This document shows, piece after piece, positions 10,471-16,773 of a stretch of 64,000 nucleotides of DNA (the stretch's first letter is position 1; each line of letters opens with the position of its first letter). Source of the stretch: Candidatus Aminicenantota bacterium (GTDB taxonomy: Bacteria; Acidobacteriota; Aminicenantia; Aminicenantales; Saccharicenantaceae); the NCBI GenBank assembly GCA_026393975.1, contig JAPKZD010000004.1, forward strand, positions 34,177 to 98,176, read 5' to 3'. The notes under the pieces are model-generated. The model saw nothing but the letters and a program-made list of their open reading frames with translations, did not search any database and was not told the origin of the DNA. The translations under genes and the position numbers were made by a program.

Positions 10471-10596
10471 GGGGCATCGTCTCCGTTCGCCGCGGTGATT
10501 CTTCACGCCATCACGGACCAGATACTTTAGGAACTTCGATCAAATCCGGTCCGTGATGACTAAATCACCGCTTCATGCTACCGTCGACGATACCCC
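10471..10596. repeat. Two-arm palindromic intergenic repeat (copy 1)
   Basis: A left arm of 49 bp (10471-10519) and a right arm of 49 bp (10548-10596) are imperfect inverted copies. Both arms begin GGGG(C/T)ATCGTC and contain GCGGTGATT and ATCACGGACC, with a 28-bp spacer. The same element lies in the opposite orientation at 22130-22245. It is too short to encode a protein, so a REP/BIME- or MITE-like palindrome is likely. Confidence 0.8.
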
Positions 10597-10614: not shown

Positions 10615-10663
10615 GTCGTCTCCGTTCGCTGCGGTGATTCTTCACGCCTTCCCGGGCCGGATC
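10615..10663. repeat. Single arm of the same repeat family (copy 3)
   Basis: CGTCTCCGTTCGCTGCGGTG followed by ATTCTTCACGCC is almost identical to the left arm at 10471, but it then diverges into CTTCCCGGGCCGGATC. It shares that tail with the arm at 2151-2202. No inverted partner arm is found next to it. Confidence 0.7.
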
Positions 10664-10681: not shown

Positions 10682-10716
10682 AAATACTACTAAATCAGTA
10701 GGAAATATTGTATAAT
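10682..10716 (+). promoter_or_regulatory. Promoter with Rrf2/IscR-like operator for the Fe-S gene run
   Basis: A perfect TATAAT -10 box lies at 10711-10716. The -35 region is weak and is covered by the dyad CTACT-AAATC-AGTAG (10687-10701), flanked by A/T-rich bases. Dyads with CTACT/AGTAG arms around a 5-bp A/T-rich centre resemble sites of the Rrf2 family (IscR type 1 and relatives), whose members often sense Fe-S status. The genes behind it are Fe-S genes. No Rrf2 gene is in the window, so the regulator would act from elsewhere. The operator call is inference from the motif and its context. Confidence 0.6.
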
Positions 10717-10739: not shown

Positions 10740-10841
10740 ATGACCATCGACGCAAAGACTAATAATGCCCGGAGCGCTCCGGCGGGCCGTGGCCGCCGGG
10801 CCTGGATGTTTGACTTCCATCCGGCTCGGTGGTATGAATGA
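10740..10841 (+). CDS. 33-residue ORF at the head of the Fe-S gene run
   Basis: ATG 10740 is preceded by a strong GGAGAGGTGA ribosome site and lies about 17 bases from the predicted transcription start, so ribosomes should load here first. The product begins MTIDAKTNNARS and ends FDFHPARWYE, with an Arg/Gly-rich middle, and I recognise no family. Its stop overlaps an upstream ATG of the next frame. The mRNA holds a perfect 14-bp palindrome (10769-10782), so this may be a leader peptide or structured leader and not a functional protein. Confidence 0.45.
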   Translation: MTIDAKTNNARSAPAGRGRRAWMFDFHPARWYE

Positions 10842-10861: not shown

Positions 10862-11044
10862 ATGGCAATCAAGAAAACGACGAAAAGCGCCGCGAAAGTG
10901 AAGAAGAACGACGCCTATGAATGCCGGATTTGCGGCTATCGTATCATCATCGACGAGGCCTGCGGCTGCGCCGAGGAACACGTCTTAGTCTGCTGCGACA
11001 AGCCGATGAAAAAAGCCGCGAAGAAGCCGGCCAAGAAGAGATAG
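10862..11044 (+). CDS. Desulforedoxin-like small metal-binding protein
   Basis: A 60-residue protein with a desulforedoxin-type core: YECRICG (Cys21, Cys24) and LVCCDKPM (Cys44, Cys45), the CxxC...CC pattern that binds one Fe in desulforedoxin and desulfoferrodoxin N-domains. Two further cysteines (Cys34, Cys36) lie in the loop. Both ends are Lys/Ala-rich tails, unusual for the family. ATG 10862 follows AAAGGAGG and is preferred over ATG 10838. It sits between the Rrf2-like operator and nfu, suggesting a redox or iron role linked to Fe-S metabolism. Confidence 0.68.
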
Positions 11045-11054
11045 GGAGTCCTTG

Positions 11055-11276
11055 ATGAAAGAAAGAATCGAACAGGCTTTGAACAAGATCCGCCCCACCC
11101 TCCAGGCGGACGGCGGCGACGTGGAACTCGTGGATGTCGGAGCGAACGGCGTCGTCAAGGTCCGGCTCAAAGGCGCCTGCGGCGGCTGTCCGATGTCCCA
11201 GCTCACCCTCAAAATGGGGATCGAACGGATCCTGAAGAAAGAGGTTCCCGAGGTCACGTCAGTCGAGGCCGTCTGA
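11055..11276 (+). CDS. Nfu-type Fe-S carrier (NifU C-terminal domain)
   Basis: A stand-alone Nfu domain of 73 residues, which carries and hands over [4Fe-4S] clusters. It has the signatures [13 protein letters not shown] (about 16-28) and ACGGCPMS with cluster cysteines Cys42 and Cys45. ATG 11055 is chosen over the TTG just before it because of spacing from the GGGAG ribosome site. It sits upstream of the IscS-like and IscU genes in the same run, consistent with late-stage cluster delivery. Confidence 0.92.
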
Positions 11277-11348: not shown

Positions 11349-12530
11349 ATGAAAAAAGTGTATCTCGATCACATCGCGGCCACACCCCTGCACCCTGAGG
11401 CCTTGGAGGCCATGCGTCCGTACCTCGGTGAGGCCTTCGGCAATCCCCAGAGCCTCCATTCCGCCGGCCGCGAGGCCCTGGAGGCCGTCGAATCGGCCCG
11501 CGAAGACGTCGCCGGGCTCATCGGCGCCGCGAGCTCTGAGATCTATTTCACCTCGAGCGGTACCGAGGCCAACAATTTCGCCGTCAAGGGACTGGCCCTC
11601 GGCCAGCAGGCCCGCGGCAAGCACATCGTCGTCTCGGCCGTCGAGCACTCCTCGGTCCTCAATTCCGTCAAGGCCCTGGAAAAGCTGGGCTTCTCGTCGA
11701 CGCTCGTCCCCGTCGACCGCTTCGGGAAGGTCGACCCGGCCGAGGTCGAGAAGGCCCTGACCAAGGAGACGGTCCTGGTCTCCGTCATGACGGCCAATAG
11801 CGAGGTCGGCACGGTCGAACCGGTCGCGGCGATCGCGGCCGTCTGCCGCTCGCGGAGCGTCCTTTTCCACACCGACGCCGTGGCCGCCGCCGGCAGTATC
11901 CCGCTCGACGTCAAGGCGATGGGCGTCGACGCCCTGAGCCTGGCCGGCGACCAGTTCTACGGGCCCAAGGGTTCGGCCGCGCTTTTCGTCCGCAAGGGCG
12001 CGCGCATCCTGCCGCTCATCGACGGCGGCATCCAGGAAGGCGGACGCCGCGGCGGAACGGAGAACGTTGCCGGTATCGTCGGGATGGGCCGGGCCGCTCG
12101 GCTGGCGCGCGTGGAGATGGAGGAGCGGACGGCCGCTCTCCTGCCCCTGAGGGACCGCCTCTTCGAAGAGCTGCCCCGGAGGATCGAGAACGTGGTTGTG
12201 ACGGGGTCTCGGACCGACCGCCTGCCCCACCACGCCAGCTTCTGCGTTGAATTCGTCGAGGGCGAGGCCATGCTCCTGAGCCTGGACATGAAGGGTGTCG
12301 CCGCCTCGAGCGGCTCGGCCTGCACGTCCAAGGCGCTCAAGGCCTCCCACGTCCTCCTGGCCATGGGCCTCGACCACGCCACGGCCCAGGGGTCACTCGT
12401 TTTCAGCCTGATCGGGACGACGACGGACGAGGACGCGGACTATCTGCTCGAAGTCTTTCCCCCGATCGTCGAGCGGCTCCGGCTCATGTCTCCGCTCTAC
12501 ACGCAATTCCTGAAAGAGAGAGGCTCATAA
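11349..12530 (+). CDS. IscS/NifS-family aminotransferase fold lacking the PLP lysine
   Basis: A 393-residue member of the cysteine desulfurase family: SSGTEANN, VEHSSVLN and the mobile-loop cysteine Cys325 (SSGSACTS) are present. Three PLP contacts are not. Aligning with a constant offset of four residues to E. coli IscS, Asn155 is Ser151, Gln183 is Ala179 and the Schiff-base Lys206 is Gln202 (AGDQFYGPKG instead of the usual HK before YGPKG). Asp180 is kept as Asp176. It is therefore doubtful as a normal PLP desulfurase. Archaeoglobus fulgidus IscS is a known family member that also lacks this lysine yet binds IscU. Here the gene overlaps iscU (TAATG), so a scaffold-partner role is plausible. 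The frame is clean, with no sign of pseudogene decay. Confidence 0.85.
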   Translation: MKKVYLDHIAATPLHPEALEAMRPYLGEAFGNPQSLHSAGREALEAVESAREDVAGLIGAASSEIYFTSSGTEANNFAVKGLALGQQARGKHIVVSAVEHSSVLNSVKALEKLGFSSTLVPVDRFGKVDPAEVEKALTKETVLVSVMTANSEVGTVEPVAAIAAVCRSRSVLFHTDAVAAAGSIPLDVKAMGVDALSLAGDQFYGPKGSAALFVRKGARILPLIDGGIQEGGRRGGTENVAGIVGMGRAARLARVEMEERTAALLPLRDRLFEELPRRIENVVVTGSRTDRLPHHASFCVEFVEGEAMLLSLDMKGVAASSGSACTSKALKASHVLLAMGLDHATAQGSLVFSLIGTTTDEDADYLLEVFPPIVERLRLMSPLYTQFLKERGS

Positions 12531-13108
12531 TGTACAGCGATAAAGTCATGGACCATTTCGCCAACCCCCGCAACGTGGGCGTCCTCGCCGATGCCGACGG
12601 CGTCGGGCAGGTGGGCAACCCCGTCTGCGGCGACATGATGACGTTCTACATCAAGGTCGAGAACGACCGGCTGGCCGACGTCAAGTTCCAGACCTTCGGT
12701 TGCGGCGCCGCTATCGCCGTCTCCAGCATGGTCAGCGAGATGGCCAAGGGCAAGACGCTCGACGAGGCCATGGCCATCACCAACGACCTCGTGGCCGAAG
12801 AGCTCGGCGGTCTGCCCAAGAACAAGATGCACTGCTCGAACCTCGGCGCCGACGCCCTCCACGAAGCCATCAAGAATTTCAAGGATAAGCGGGCGGGCCG
12901 CGCTCCCGGCGAACGCGGGCCCGTCGACCTCCACGAACACGAAGGCTGCGCCTGCCCCTATTGCGAGAGCTCCCTCGAAGAGGAGGACAAGACGGTCTGC
13001 CGCGCCTGCCATATCGAGTTCGAGGAATGCCCTTCCTGCGGCGGGATAACAAAAAAGGGCGACGCGTCTTGCATCCATTGCGGGAAACCGCTCGGGAACA
13101 AGACTTGA
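12530..13108 (+). CDS. iscU: IscU-type Fe-S scaffold with C-terminal double zinc ribbon
   Basis: Scaffold on which Fe-S clusters are assembled. Residues 1 to about 120 form an IscU domain with the three cluster cysteines Cys33 (VCGD, next to Asp35), Cys58 (FGCGAA) and Cys102 (HCSNLG). An extra segment of about 60 residues follows, with four CxxC pairs (CPYC, CRAC, CPSC, CIHC), predicting two zinc ribbons or possibly a redox-metal site. Ordinary IscU ends near residue 128, so the extension is unusual. Its start overlaps the IscS-like stop, implying 1:1 coupled synthesis. Confidence 0.9.
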   Translation: MYSDKVMDHFANPRNVGVLADADGVGQVGNPVCGDMMTFYIKVENDRLADVKFQTFGCGAAIAVSSMVSEMAKGKTLDEAMAITNDLVAEELGGLPKNKMHCSNLGADALHEAIKNFKDKRAGRAPGERGPVDLHEHEGCACPYCESSLEEEDKTVCRACHIEFEECPSCGGITKKGDASCIHCGKPLGNKT

Positions 13109-13121
13109 GCCGGGAGGATAA

Positions 13122-14030
13122 TTGAAAACAGGGGACATCCTCGAAAAGATCGGCGAGCTCAAGCGGCGGAAAAATGCCGTCATCCTGGCCCACAACTATC
13201 AGATCCCCGAGGTCCAGGACGCGGCCGACTTCGTCGGGGACTCCCTCGAACTCAGCCGTAAGGCCGCCGGGCTTGACGCCGACCTCATCGTCTTTTGCGG
13301 CGTCCGCTTCATGGCCGAGACGGCCGCTGTCCTCGCCCCCGGCAAGACGGTCCTCCTGCCCGAGGCCGAAGCGGGCTGCCCGATGGCCGATATGATCAAC
13401 GGCCGCGAGCTCCGCGCCTGGAAAGAGCGCTACCCGGGGCTCAAGGTCGTCTGTTACGTCAACACCAGCGCCGAGGTCAAGGCCGAAAGCGACATCTGCT
13501 GCACGTCCAGCAACGCCGTAAACGTCGTCAATTCCCTGGGCGTCGAGGAAGCCCTCTTCGTTCCCGATAAGAACCTGGCCGCCTGGGTCGCCCGGGAAAC
13601 GGGAAAGCGGCTCATCGCCTGGGACGGCTACTGCTACGTCCATCACAGGTTCACCCCACGGGACATCCGGGACGCCCGGGCCCTCCATCCCGGGGCCGAG
13701 GTCTGGGTCCACCCGGAGTGCCCCCTCGACGTCATCGACCTCGCCGACAAGGTTCTCTCGACCGGGAAGATGGTCCTCGAGGCGCGGGCAACCTCCTGCC
13801 GCGAGGTCATCATCGGTACCGAGAAGGGCATCCTCTACCGCCTGGGCAAGGAGAACCCGGCCGTGAAATTCTATCCGGCCCGGGAGACCGCGCTCTGCGC
13901 CCACATGAAGATGACGACCCTGGCCAAGGTCCTGCGGGCTCTCGAGACCGGGACCAGCCGGATCGAGGTCCCCAAAGACATCGCCGACCGGGCCCGGGGC
14001 TCGATCCAAGCCATGCTCGAGATATCCTGA
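13122..14030 (+). CDS. nadA: Quinolinate synthase A
   Basis: [4Fe-4S] enzyme that condenses iminoaspartate with dihydroxyacetone phosphate in de novo NAD synthesis. The 302 residues fit the short NadA class. The three cluster cysteines are Cys86 (AGCPMAD), Cys171 (GYCYVH) and Cys259 (LCAHMK), matching the three of the Thermotoga enzyme. ILAHNYQIPEVQD and GDSLEL are substrate motifs. Translation starts at TTG 13122 behind GGGAGGATAA. No nadB or nadC is present, so it is here as an Fe-S client in the cluster-assembly run. Confidence 0.95.
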   Translation: MKTGDILEKIGELKRRKNAVILAHNYQIPEVQDAADFVGDSLELSRKAAGLDADLIVFCGVRFMAETAAVLAPGKTVLLPEAEAGCPMADMINGRELRAWKERYPGLKVVCYVNTSAEVKAESDICCTSSNAVNVVNSLGVEEALFVPDKNLAAWVARETGKRLIAWDGYCYVHHRFTPRDIRDARALHPGAEVWVHPECPLDVIDLADKVLSTGKMVLEARATSCREVIIGTEKGILYRLGKENPAVKFYPARETALCAHMKMTTLAKVLRALETGTSRIEVPKDIADRARGSIQAMLEIS

Positions 14031-14044
14031 AGGAGATTCGCGAC

Positions 14045-14548
14045 ATGAAAAAGATGACCGAAGAGAATGTCAAGGCCGCCCTCGCCGGCGAGAGCCAGGC
14101 CCATATCAAGTATCTCGCCTTCGCCGACAAGGCCGCCGCGGAGAAGCTCCCCAACGTGGCCCGCGCTTTCAAGGCCAACTCCTATGCCGAGCAGGTCCAC
14201 GCCACCAACTACGTTAAGACGCTCGGCGCTCTCGGCAGGTCGAAGGACAACCTCGAGGCGGCCCTCGGCGGCGAGTCCTTCGAGATCGAGGAGATGTACC
14301 CGTCCTATATCGCCGTGGCCCAGGCCCAGGGCGAGAAGACGGCCGAGAAATTCTTCAACTGGGCCCTGGCCGCCGAAAAAGTCCATGCCGGTATCTACCG
14401 GGGTGCCGCCGCGGCCGTTGAGTCGGGCCGGGACATCGATCCCAAGCCTATCCACGTCTGCTCCGTCTGCGGTTTCACGATGGAAGGCGACGCGCCGGAC
14501 AAGTGTCCCGTCTGCGGCACTCCGAAAGTCAAGTTCGTCACGTTCTGA
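14045..14548 (+). CDS. Rubrerythrin
   Basis: Peroxide-reducing diiron protein of 167 residues. An N-terminal ferritin-like bundle carries the diiron Glu/His ligands (AGESQAHIKYLAFA, SYAEQVHATNY, AAEKVHAGIY). A C-terminal rubredoxin-type domain has two CxxCG motifs (CSVCGFTMEGDAPDKCPVCG). GAAGGAGA precedes the ATG, which lies 14 bp from nadA. In anaerobes it protects Fe-S enzymes from H2O2, which fits its place behind Fe-S assembly genes. Confidence 0.95.
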   Translation: MKKMTEENVKAALAGESQAHIKYLAFADKAAAEKLPNVARAFKANSYAEQVHATNYVKTLGALGRSKDNLEAALGGESFEIEEMYPSYIAVAQAQGEKTAEKFFNWALAAEKVHAGIYRGAAAAVESGRDIDPKPIHVCSVCGFTMEGDAPDKCPVCGTPKVKFVTF

Positions 14549-14571: not shown

Positions 14572-15081
14572 ATGGCCATCGATAAGAAACTCACGGCTTG
14601 GGAGATCCTCGGCGTGGCCATTCGCTCCGAGGTCGACGCCGCCGCCTTCTACCAACGGCTCCAGGAGCGGGTGAAGAACGTCATCCTCGTCCAGAAGCTC
14701 AAGTTCCTGGCCCTGGAGGAAGAGCACCACAAGAAGATCCTCGAGCGGCTCCTCGGGCAGAAATATCCCGACAAGCCTAAGGACGTCCCCGAGTCGTCCC
14801 TGATGCCGCCGATCACCGTCTCCGTCGGCACCGAGCCCACGGTCCCGGCCCTTTTCGGGGCGGCGCTCAAGGCCGAGGAAACGGCCGAGGCCTTTTACAA
14901 CGAGGCCGGCGAGAGGGCGGAGGACGAGGCCGGCCGTAATATCCTGGCCTACCTCGGCCGCGTCGAGAGAAGCCACCAGGCCATGATCAAGTCCGAGCTG
15001 GAGCTCCTCCGCAAGTTCCCCGACTACTACAGCGTCGAAGACTTCCACATTGGCCAGGACCTCTTCCACGTCGGGCCCTGA
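14572..15081 (+). CDS. Ferritin-like/rubrerythrin-family protein without rubredoxin domain
   Basis: 169 residues forming two helix pairs: EILGVAIRSEVDAAAFYQ with ALEEEHHKKIL, and ALKAEETAEAFYNEAG with RVERSHQAMI, the Glu/ExxH ligand pattern of diiron ferritin-like proteins. There is no rubredoxin tail. It follows rubrerythrin by 23 bp with a GGGAGG ribosome site, and it is distinct from the 4977-5438 protein. Iron oxidation or storage, or peroxide removal, are possible; I cannot choose between them. Confidence 0.8.
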   Translation: MAIDKKLTAWEILGVAIRSEVDAAAFYQRLQERVKNVILVQKLKFLALEEEHHKKILERLLGQKYPDKPKDVPESSLMPPITVSVGTEPTVPALFGAALKAEETAEAFYNEAGERAEDEAGRNILAYLGRVERSHQAMIKSELELLRKFPDYYSVEDFHIGQDLFHVGP

Positions 15082-15103: not shown

Positions 15104-15763
15104 ATGGAACCGGCGCCCAAGCGTATCGGGCGGATCATCGGGCTCCTCCGGGAGCGATATCCGCAGCCCCGGACCGCCCTCGAGTTTCAGAACCCGCTCC
15201 AGATCCTCGTCGCCACGATCTTGGCCGCCCAGTGCACGGACGAGCGGGTCAACCGGATCACGCCGGGCCTTTTCCGGAAATACCCGACGGCGGCCGCCTT
15301 CGCCCGGGCCGACCGGACCGAGCTCGAGCAGGAGATCCGCTCGGCCGGTTTTTTCCGGAACAAGGCCAAGAATATCATCGGCGCGGCCCGTCGGATCGTC
15401 GAGGAGTTCGGCGGTGCCGTCCCGGATTCCATGGCCGCGCTCGTGACGCTGCCCGGGGTCGCTCGCAAGACGGCCAACATCGTCCTGTCGGCGGGCTACG
15501 GCAAGGCCGAGGGGATCGCCGTCGACACCCACGCTCGGCGCCTGTCCCGGCGGCTCGGCCTAAGCCGGCACGAGGACCCGGAGAAGATCGAGCGCGACCT
15601 CCTGGCCGTGGTGCCCAAGGACGACTGGCTGGATTTCAATTTCCTGCTCGTCGAACACGGCCGAGCTCTATGTCAGGCGCGCAAGCCGAAGTGCCCGGAG
15701 TGTTTCCTGCGGCGGATCTGCCCGTCGGCCGAGGCCCTAATTTTAGGCGGAAAACTGAAATGA
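15104..15763 (+). CDS. nth: Endonuclease III (Fe-S DNA glycosylase/AP lyase)
   Basis: Base-excision repair enzyme that removes oxidised pyrimidines. The 219 residues carry the helix-hairpin-helix LPGVARKTANIVL with catalytic Lys122, the catalytic Asp141 in AVDTHARRL, and a C-terminal [4Fe-4S] loop with spacing C-x6-C-x2-C-x5-C (CQARKPKCPECFLRRIC). Its stop overlaps the next start (ATGA). As an Fe-S repair enzyme for oxidative damage it fits this neighbourhood. Confidence 0.96.
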   Translation: MEPAPKRIGRIIGLLRERYPQPRTALEFQNPLQILVATILAAQCTDERVNRITPGLFRKYPTAAAFARADRTELEQEIRSAGFFRNKAKNIIGAARRIVEEFGGAVPDSMAALVTLPGVARKTANIVLSAGYGKAEGIAVDTHARRLSRRLGLSRHEDPEKIERDLLAVVPKDDWLDFNFLLVEHGRALCQARKPKCPECFLRRICPSAEALILGGKLK

Positions 15764-16773
15764 CCCGCGAGGCCATGCTCTGGAAGCCCCTCGAAGGCGG
15801 TCAGGCCGGCTGCGGCCTCTGCGCCCACCGCTGCGTCATCGCGCCCGGCAAGCAGGGGATATGCGGCGTCCGCGAGAACCGCGGCGGCCGTCTCCAGACG
15901 CTCGTCTACGGCGAAGTCGTCGCCGCCCACGTCGACCCCATCGAAAAGAAGCCGCTCTATCATTTTTATCCCGGTTCGAAGGCCCTCTCCATCGCGACGC
16001 CGGGCTGTAATTTCCGCTGTGGCTTCTGCCAGAACTGGGAGATCTCGCAGGCGCCGCGCCGCAAGGGCGGCGGGATCGCGGGAGACCCGTTCGCGCCCGA
16101 GGACGTCGTCCGGGCCGCCCTCGACCAGGGCTGCCGGAGCATCTCCTACACCTACACCGAGCCAACGATCTTTTTCGAGTACGCTTTCGACACGGCCCGG
16201 CTGGCCCGGGAGGCGGGCCTTCTCAACAATTTCGTCACCAACGGCTACATGACGGCCGAGGCCCTGGAGGCGATCCGGCCTTATCTCGACGCTGCCAACG
16301 TCGACCTCAAGGCGTTCAAGGACGAAACCTATAAGAAGATCTGCGGCGCCCGGCTCGAGCCCGTCCTCGAAACCATCCGCCTGATGCGCCGGCTCGGCAT
16401 CTGGGTCGAGGTCACGACCCTCGTCGTCCCGGACCTCAACGACGGCGGGGAGGAGCTTGCGGCGATCGCCCGGTTCGTCGTCTCCGTGGACCCCGACATC
16501 CCCTGGCACCTCAGCCGGTTCCACCCGGACTACGAATACACCCAGGCGCCGCCGACGCCCGCCGCCACCCTCCGAGCCGCGGCCGAAACGGGCCGGCGGG
16601 AGGGCCTCCGGCACATCTACATCGGCAACGTCCTCGGCGAATCGGAAGACACGCTCTGCGCGACGTGCGGCTTCGTTCTCATCCGCCGGCGGGGTTTCTC
16701 GGTCGTCGGCAACGTCCTGCGCGAGTCCCGCTGTCCCTCCTGCGGCGCTGTCCTCGCCGGCCTGTTCGACTGA
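15760..16773 (+). CDS. amrS: AmrS-like radical SAM enzyme (AmmeMemoRadiSam system)
   Basis: Radical SAM protein of 337 residues with the [4Fe-4S]-SAM motif CNFRCGFC. An N-terminal cysteine region (CGLCAHRCVIAPGKQGICGV) precedes the long conserved block starting YGEVVAAHVDPIEKKPLYHF, which is diagnostic of the family. A C-terminal zinc-like part has CATCG and CPSCG. The family is named for its co-occurrence with AMMECR1 and Memo proteins, neither of which is in this window, and its substrate is not known to me. The ATGA overlap with nth gives the start at 15760. Confidence 0.88.
   Translation: MTREAMLWKPLEGGQAGCGLCAHRCVIAPGKQGICGVRENRGGRLQTLVYGEVVAAHVDPIEKKPLYHFYPGSKALSIATPGCNFRCGFCQNWEISQAPRRKGGGIAGDPFAPEDVVRAALDQGCRSISYTYTEPTIFFEYAFDTARLAREAGLLNNFVTNGYMTAEALEAIRPYLDAANVDLKAFKDETYKKICGARLEPVLETIRLMRRLGIWVEVTTLVVPDLNDGGEELAAIARFVVSVDPDIPWHLSRFHPDYEYTQAPPTPAATLRAAAETGRREGLRHIYIGNVLGESEDTLCATCGFVLIRRRGFSVVGNVLRESRCPSCGAVLAGLFD

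Follow-up and report, generated by a model that had tools for sequence, protein, structure and literature searches.

The type-1 operator of Escherichia coli IscR is ATASYYGACTRWWWYAGTCRRSTAT, with the core ACTRWWWYAGT. The PerR regulons of anaerobes such as Clostridium, which include rubrerythrin, flavodiiron protein and thioredoxin, are under the control of a Fur-family regulator that recognizes the TTATAATNATTATAA box. In Myxococcus xanthus, RisR is a Rrf2-type repressor of isc and suf genes, with sites of the form GAC-N7-GTC that lie over the -10 and -35 elements (PMC9973013).

We analysed a stretch of 64,000 nucleotides (the window) from a Candidatus Aminicenantes genome (2.95 Mb, 25 contigs). 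It contains a 25-bp dyad, AAATACTACTAAATCAGTAGGAAAT, overlapping the -35 region of P1, a promoter with TATAAT as its -10 element. The dyad resembles the operator of E. coli IscR in its length of 25 bp at equal phase, in its identical core ACTRWWWYAGT, in its position over an Fe-S assembly promoter and in being accompanied by a three-Cys Rrf2 protein, whereas it carries TACT/AGTA instead of GACT/AGTC. In addition, and in contrast to E. coli, the operon does not begin with iscR, the His ligand is replaced in the window genome, and the apparent regulon extends to superoxide dismutase (SOD), flavodiiron protein and methionine sulfoxide reductase. The protective gene content is similar to that under Clostridium PerR, but the latter system depends on the TTATAATNATTATAA box and a Fur-family regulator, and most genomes of the present genus lack a Fur-family gene. 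The GAC-N7-GTC spacing of RisR sites corresponds to TAC-N7-GTA here, with a difference in the outer half-site base, and a term search within the RisR paper found no oxygen-defence regulon for that protein (PMC9973013).

Operator and promoter P1

The sequence-only reading had described a TATAAT element and a CTACT-AAATC-AGTAG dyad over a weak -35 region at positions 10682-10716. Both elements were seen there, and this interval corresponds to the 25-bp operator plus the -10 element (Table 1). Perfect 5-5-5 dyads number 136 in the window, three of them equally AT-rich, and the bare dyad is a chance-level feature that has no significance alone. The 25-bp operator is real and conserved across related species. 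Close relatives carrying it were located via the cysteine desulfurase, and the 25-mer and the -10 element, unlike the flanking sequences, were found to be kept in ten congeneric relatives. For 11 genus promoters aligned on the element, the commonest base at a position had an average frequency of 0.84 over the 25-mer and of 0.92 over the -10 element, compared with 0.48 in the upstream and 0.52 in the downstream flank. The closest sister locus, L008, has a 25-bp palindrome, AAATACTACTAATTTAGTAGTATTT, as its operator, and the consensus of the genus sites is AAATMCTACTAAWTTAGTAGKATTT. With a matrix built from genus sites found by pattern, the window operator among them, this operator scored 37.5 and the runner-up among 60 window promoters 5.2; given that the training sites were chosen by pattern, the matrix scores of those genus sites are not independent.

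A dispersed repeat, CGTCTCCGTYCGCYGCGGTGATTCTTCACGCC, is present just 5' of the operator in two copies (10477-10523 and 10616-10662) that are 139 bases apart. The genome contains 16 copies at three or fewer mismatches, and the reversed control gave 0.

Table 1 Features of the operator region, the genes behind it and the candidate regulator (window positions unless a contig is given)
Feature	Position	Strand	Basis or remark
25-bp operator AAATACTACTAAATCAGTAGGAAAT	10682..10706	.	sequence, genus alignment, matrix score
Inner perfect dyad CTACT-AAATC-AGTAG	10687-10701		within 25-bp operator; sequence
P1 -35, predicted weak, TACTAA	10688..10693	+	inside operator; 17 nt to -10; inferred from sequence
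P1 -10, TATAAT	10711..10716	+	starts four bases past operator; TATRAT kept in ten genus relatives
34-codon ORF, DUF438-hemerythrin-PAS remnant: MTIDAKT (first codons) joined to last-codon region (CTGGATGTTTGA)	10740..10841	+	sequence
Promoter-like P2, TTGACT-17-TATGAA, no operator	10810..10838	+	identical in L008; -35/-10 kept in L009
Desulforedoxin-like small protein	10862..11044	+	weak Desulfoferrod_N match, E=0.001, below Pfam cut-off
nfu (NifU-like C-terminal domain)	11055..11276	+	
NifS/IscS-type cysteine desulfurase	11349..12530	+	
NifU/IscU scaffold	12530..13108	+	
nadA, quinolinate synthase	13122..14030	+	
Rubrerythrin	14036..14548	+	
Second rubrerythrin/ferritin-like protein	14572..15081	+	
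nth, endonuclease III	15104..15763	+	
Radical SAM protein	15760..16773	+	start approximate
IscR-type Rrf2 protein	G000:C19:72464-72913		

Genes behind the operator and their promoters

The gene run from the desulforedoxin-like protein to the radical SAM protein was as first read, with the desulforedoxin-like call being a weak Desulfoferrod_N match only. At six related loci (L010-L013, L015 and L016), the operator precedes a DUF438-hemerythrin-PAS gene; the protein carries an extra DUF1858 domain at L010, according to Pfam, and at L016, as judged by sequence. The gene is reduced to its hemerythrin and PAS parts at L008 and mainly to the PAS part at L009 and L014, and in the window it has been deleted save for its first codons and the sequence around its last codons. 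Because the intervening gene was lost in this lineage, P1 now faces the desulforedoxin-nfu-iscSU run directly. Across L008-L016 and L094, the DUF1858-DUF438-hemerythrin-PAS gene sheds domains stepwise among congeners with retention of the promoter.

The promoter-like sequence P2 is situated between P1 and the desulforedoxin-like gene, just downstream of the operator, and L010-L016 have a different promoter-like sequence, ending in TAAGAT, immediately 5' of nfu. The Fe-S operon may also be transcribed from the operator-free P2. If P2 alone drove the Fe-S genes, the dyad would be a promoter relic left behind by the deleted DUF438-hemerythrin gene and would now be without function. In line with this reading, the sister locus L008 has its DUF438-HHE-PAS gene under the operator and an identical P2. 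The operator and -10 element are still near-perfect after the deletion, however, and the same motif directly precedes nfu in other families, so that we consider a relic to be quite improbable.

In several genera and families outside the genus, nfu-iscS-iscU promoters contain the motif with no DUF438 gene in between (p ~0.005 versus shuffles), as seen at L026/L108, L028/L107, L031/L111, L083 and L113-L117. Given that these order-level sites were kept out of the matrix, they provide independent support for the link to Fe-S genes. The matrix revealed no significant site at the nfu promoters of L017-L021, L025, L029, L099, L103, L104, L109, L110 and L112; with several families scoring low, the link between operator and nfu is not universal in the order. 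A stricter 16-position pattern applied to 396 genomes of the phylum matched only the sister genome G004, and the strict form of the operator is therefore limited to the genus. In loci of other families (L022, L077, L031 and L032), a gene resembling that for B12-dependent ribonucleotide reductase, identified by sequence, lies just 5' of nfu, and motif-like sites were present at its promoter at L022 and L077.

An IscR-type Rrf2 protein as candidate regulator

An Rrf2/IscR-like regulator had been proposed from the operator sequence, and a profile search with PF02082 indeed found two Rrf2 proteins in the genome, both above the cut-off (E values of 8.9e-38 and 4.6e-31). The best candidate for the regulator of the operator is the IscR-type protein listed in Table 1. 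Orthologs are present in 47 of 50 relatives and in 12 of the 13 genus genomes, the sole exception within the genus being a genome that is 67% complete. G014 lacks the IscR-type protein and the isc-operon NifS ortholog alike. The ortholog alignment shows three conserved Cys residues, C-x6-C-x5-C, followed three residues past the third Cys by a His in many order-level orthologs (CATH, CGTH) and by Phe in the window genome; this position is that of the His107 ligand of E. coli IscR, and the Phe counts against the IscR-type assignment. The recognition helix, SIRYLEQIIIPLKI, is near-invariant among orthologs, one of which has S for P, and Arg occupies the position of Ser40 in E. coli IscR. With TIGR02010, the NCBIfam IscR equivalog, the protein scored 107.7 bits, below the cut-off of 207.55, and we therefore refer to it as IscR-like rather than IscR sensu stricto. 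Its best PDB match, and the closest solved structure by sequence, was 4cic (E=2e-24), which we take to be IscR of the anaerobic bacterium Thermincola potens.

The promoter of the IscR-type gene itself contains a conserved, degenerate copy of the motif, AATTCCTATAAATTCATGTTGATAT, the left arm of which fits the operator. This copy scores above shuffles in most genomes and, with the exception of the window operator, surpasses 60 control promoters in 11 of 12 genus genomes, although the best match at L155, one of these 11, lies elsewhere. Only one arm matches well, and given that the degenerate right arm overlaps a TTGATA -35 element, the conservation may partly reflect promoter constraint, so that the copy is supportive but does not amount to proof.

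The second Rrf2 protein (G000:C14:25659-26054) belongs to the same family, has three Cys residues and is also found genus-wide, all of which would be compatible with its binding to the operator. Its own promoter, however, has a different conserved element, GACTTAGTC-TATTGA-N-TWAGTC, with operator-matrix scores of -4 to 4, far below those of operator sites, and we rejected it as the regulator on account of this distinct operator; that it binds the present site seems extremely unlikely. The element, which can also be written TTAAATGACTTAGTCTATTGA-N-TWAGTCAA, is strongly conserved 5' of the gene (L001 1447-1490, with orthologs at L265-L275).

Regulon and proposed mechanism

The 13 genus genomes were scanned with a two-mismatch pattern, neighbouring genes were inspected and their families were checked with Pfam. 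Sites were found to precede trxA and yebC-ruvC-ruvA in three species each, the flavodiiron protein gene fprA in three to four species, SOD (followed by photolyase) and msrAB in one to two species each, a DUF6786 lipoprotein gene in two species, and also the DUF438-HHE gene or its remnants. For the own genome, the regulon is that given by a pattern scan, not by a full matrix scan: matches precede SOD, flavodiiron protein and a housekeeping-type sigma factor beside msrAB, msrAB has an operator match of its own, and several further matches are of lower confidence. Matches of ACTACTN5AGTAGT in family g4 were rejected as regulon members, given that most of those inspected were coding sequence (for example, PTILVV). 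In the genus scan and at the order-level nfu promoters, the dyad did not occur at random outside promoters but was concentrated at those of Fe-S and oxygen-defence genes. The operator sites thus look like a single regulon for Fe-S assembly and oxygen defence.

As separate observations, the match at L296 855-879 (G000:C21) is directly 5' of the housekeeping-type sigma-70 gene, and five species have a conserved operator-like site ahead of the gene for a secreted protein of unknown function, at L240 (G000:C22:87739-87761), L223, L230, L238 and L242.

The rubrerythrin, SOD, flavodiiron protein and thioredoxin content resembles that of anaerobe PerR regulons, and a single Fur-family gene is present in the own genome, so that a PerR-like peroxide sensor of this family might bind the site, which also fits a 7-1-7 arrangement, CTACTAA-W-TTAGTAG. 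However, the match to the PerR box covers only about three of the seven bases of a half-site, and Fur-family genes are absent from eight of the 13 genus genomes, including the operator-bearing G003, G004 and G009, which are 94-96% complete (G003 in 10 contigs and G009 in seven). We rejected a Fur/PerR regulator because its gene is missing from several operator-bearing genomes, and regard it as very unlikely. Binding of the dyad by some other, unrecognised transcription factor (GntR, MarR, ArsR or other) acting as an oxygen-stress regulator is unlikely: the regulator was assigned from the geometry of the motif and a single degenerate site for autoregulation, and further families bind such dyads too, but, besides the IscR-type protein, no transcription factor was found beside a site, although a housekeeping-type sigma factor was.

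An IscR-type Rrf2 repressor probably uses the dyad as its operator and would control Fe-S assembly together with oxygen protection. When clusters are plentiful, the cluster-loaded dimer would cover the -35 and spacer region and so block RNA polymerase. Destruction of the cluster by oxygen or iron limitation would lift repression, as for RisR and IscR, and the Fe-S assembly genes would then be expressed with the rubrerythrin and ferritin-like protectors, as would SOD, flavodiiron protein and methionine sulfoxide reductase elsewhere in the genome. The initial proposal of one Fe-S-sensing regulator for the whole run is the best-supported reading but was supported only in part, by the presence of an IscR-type candidate and the concentration of the dyad at Fe-S and oxygen-defence promoters; it had missed the deleted DUF438-hemerythrin-PAS gene and P2.

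It is conceivable, if somewhat short of probable, that a single IscR-like Fe-S sensor took over the role of PerR, OxyR and SoxR as global regulator of oxygen damage in Aminicenantes, a lineage often without Fur-family proteins. Its global regulon would then comprise Fe-S assembly, SOD, flavodiiron protein, thioredoxin, methionine sulfoxide reductase and the DUF438-hemerythrin-PAS protein, and possibly also the housekeeping sigma factor and yebC-ruvCA. A computed regulon and a defined operator are now given for a widespread uncultured anaerobic lineage, and the TACT versus GACT half-sites, together with the Arg found where E. coli IscR has Ser40, offer a test of specificity in the Rrf2 family. 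Our findings suggest that anaerobes without PerR can perhaps use the status of their Fe-S clusters as an oxygen alarm.
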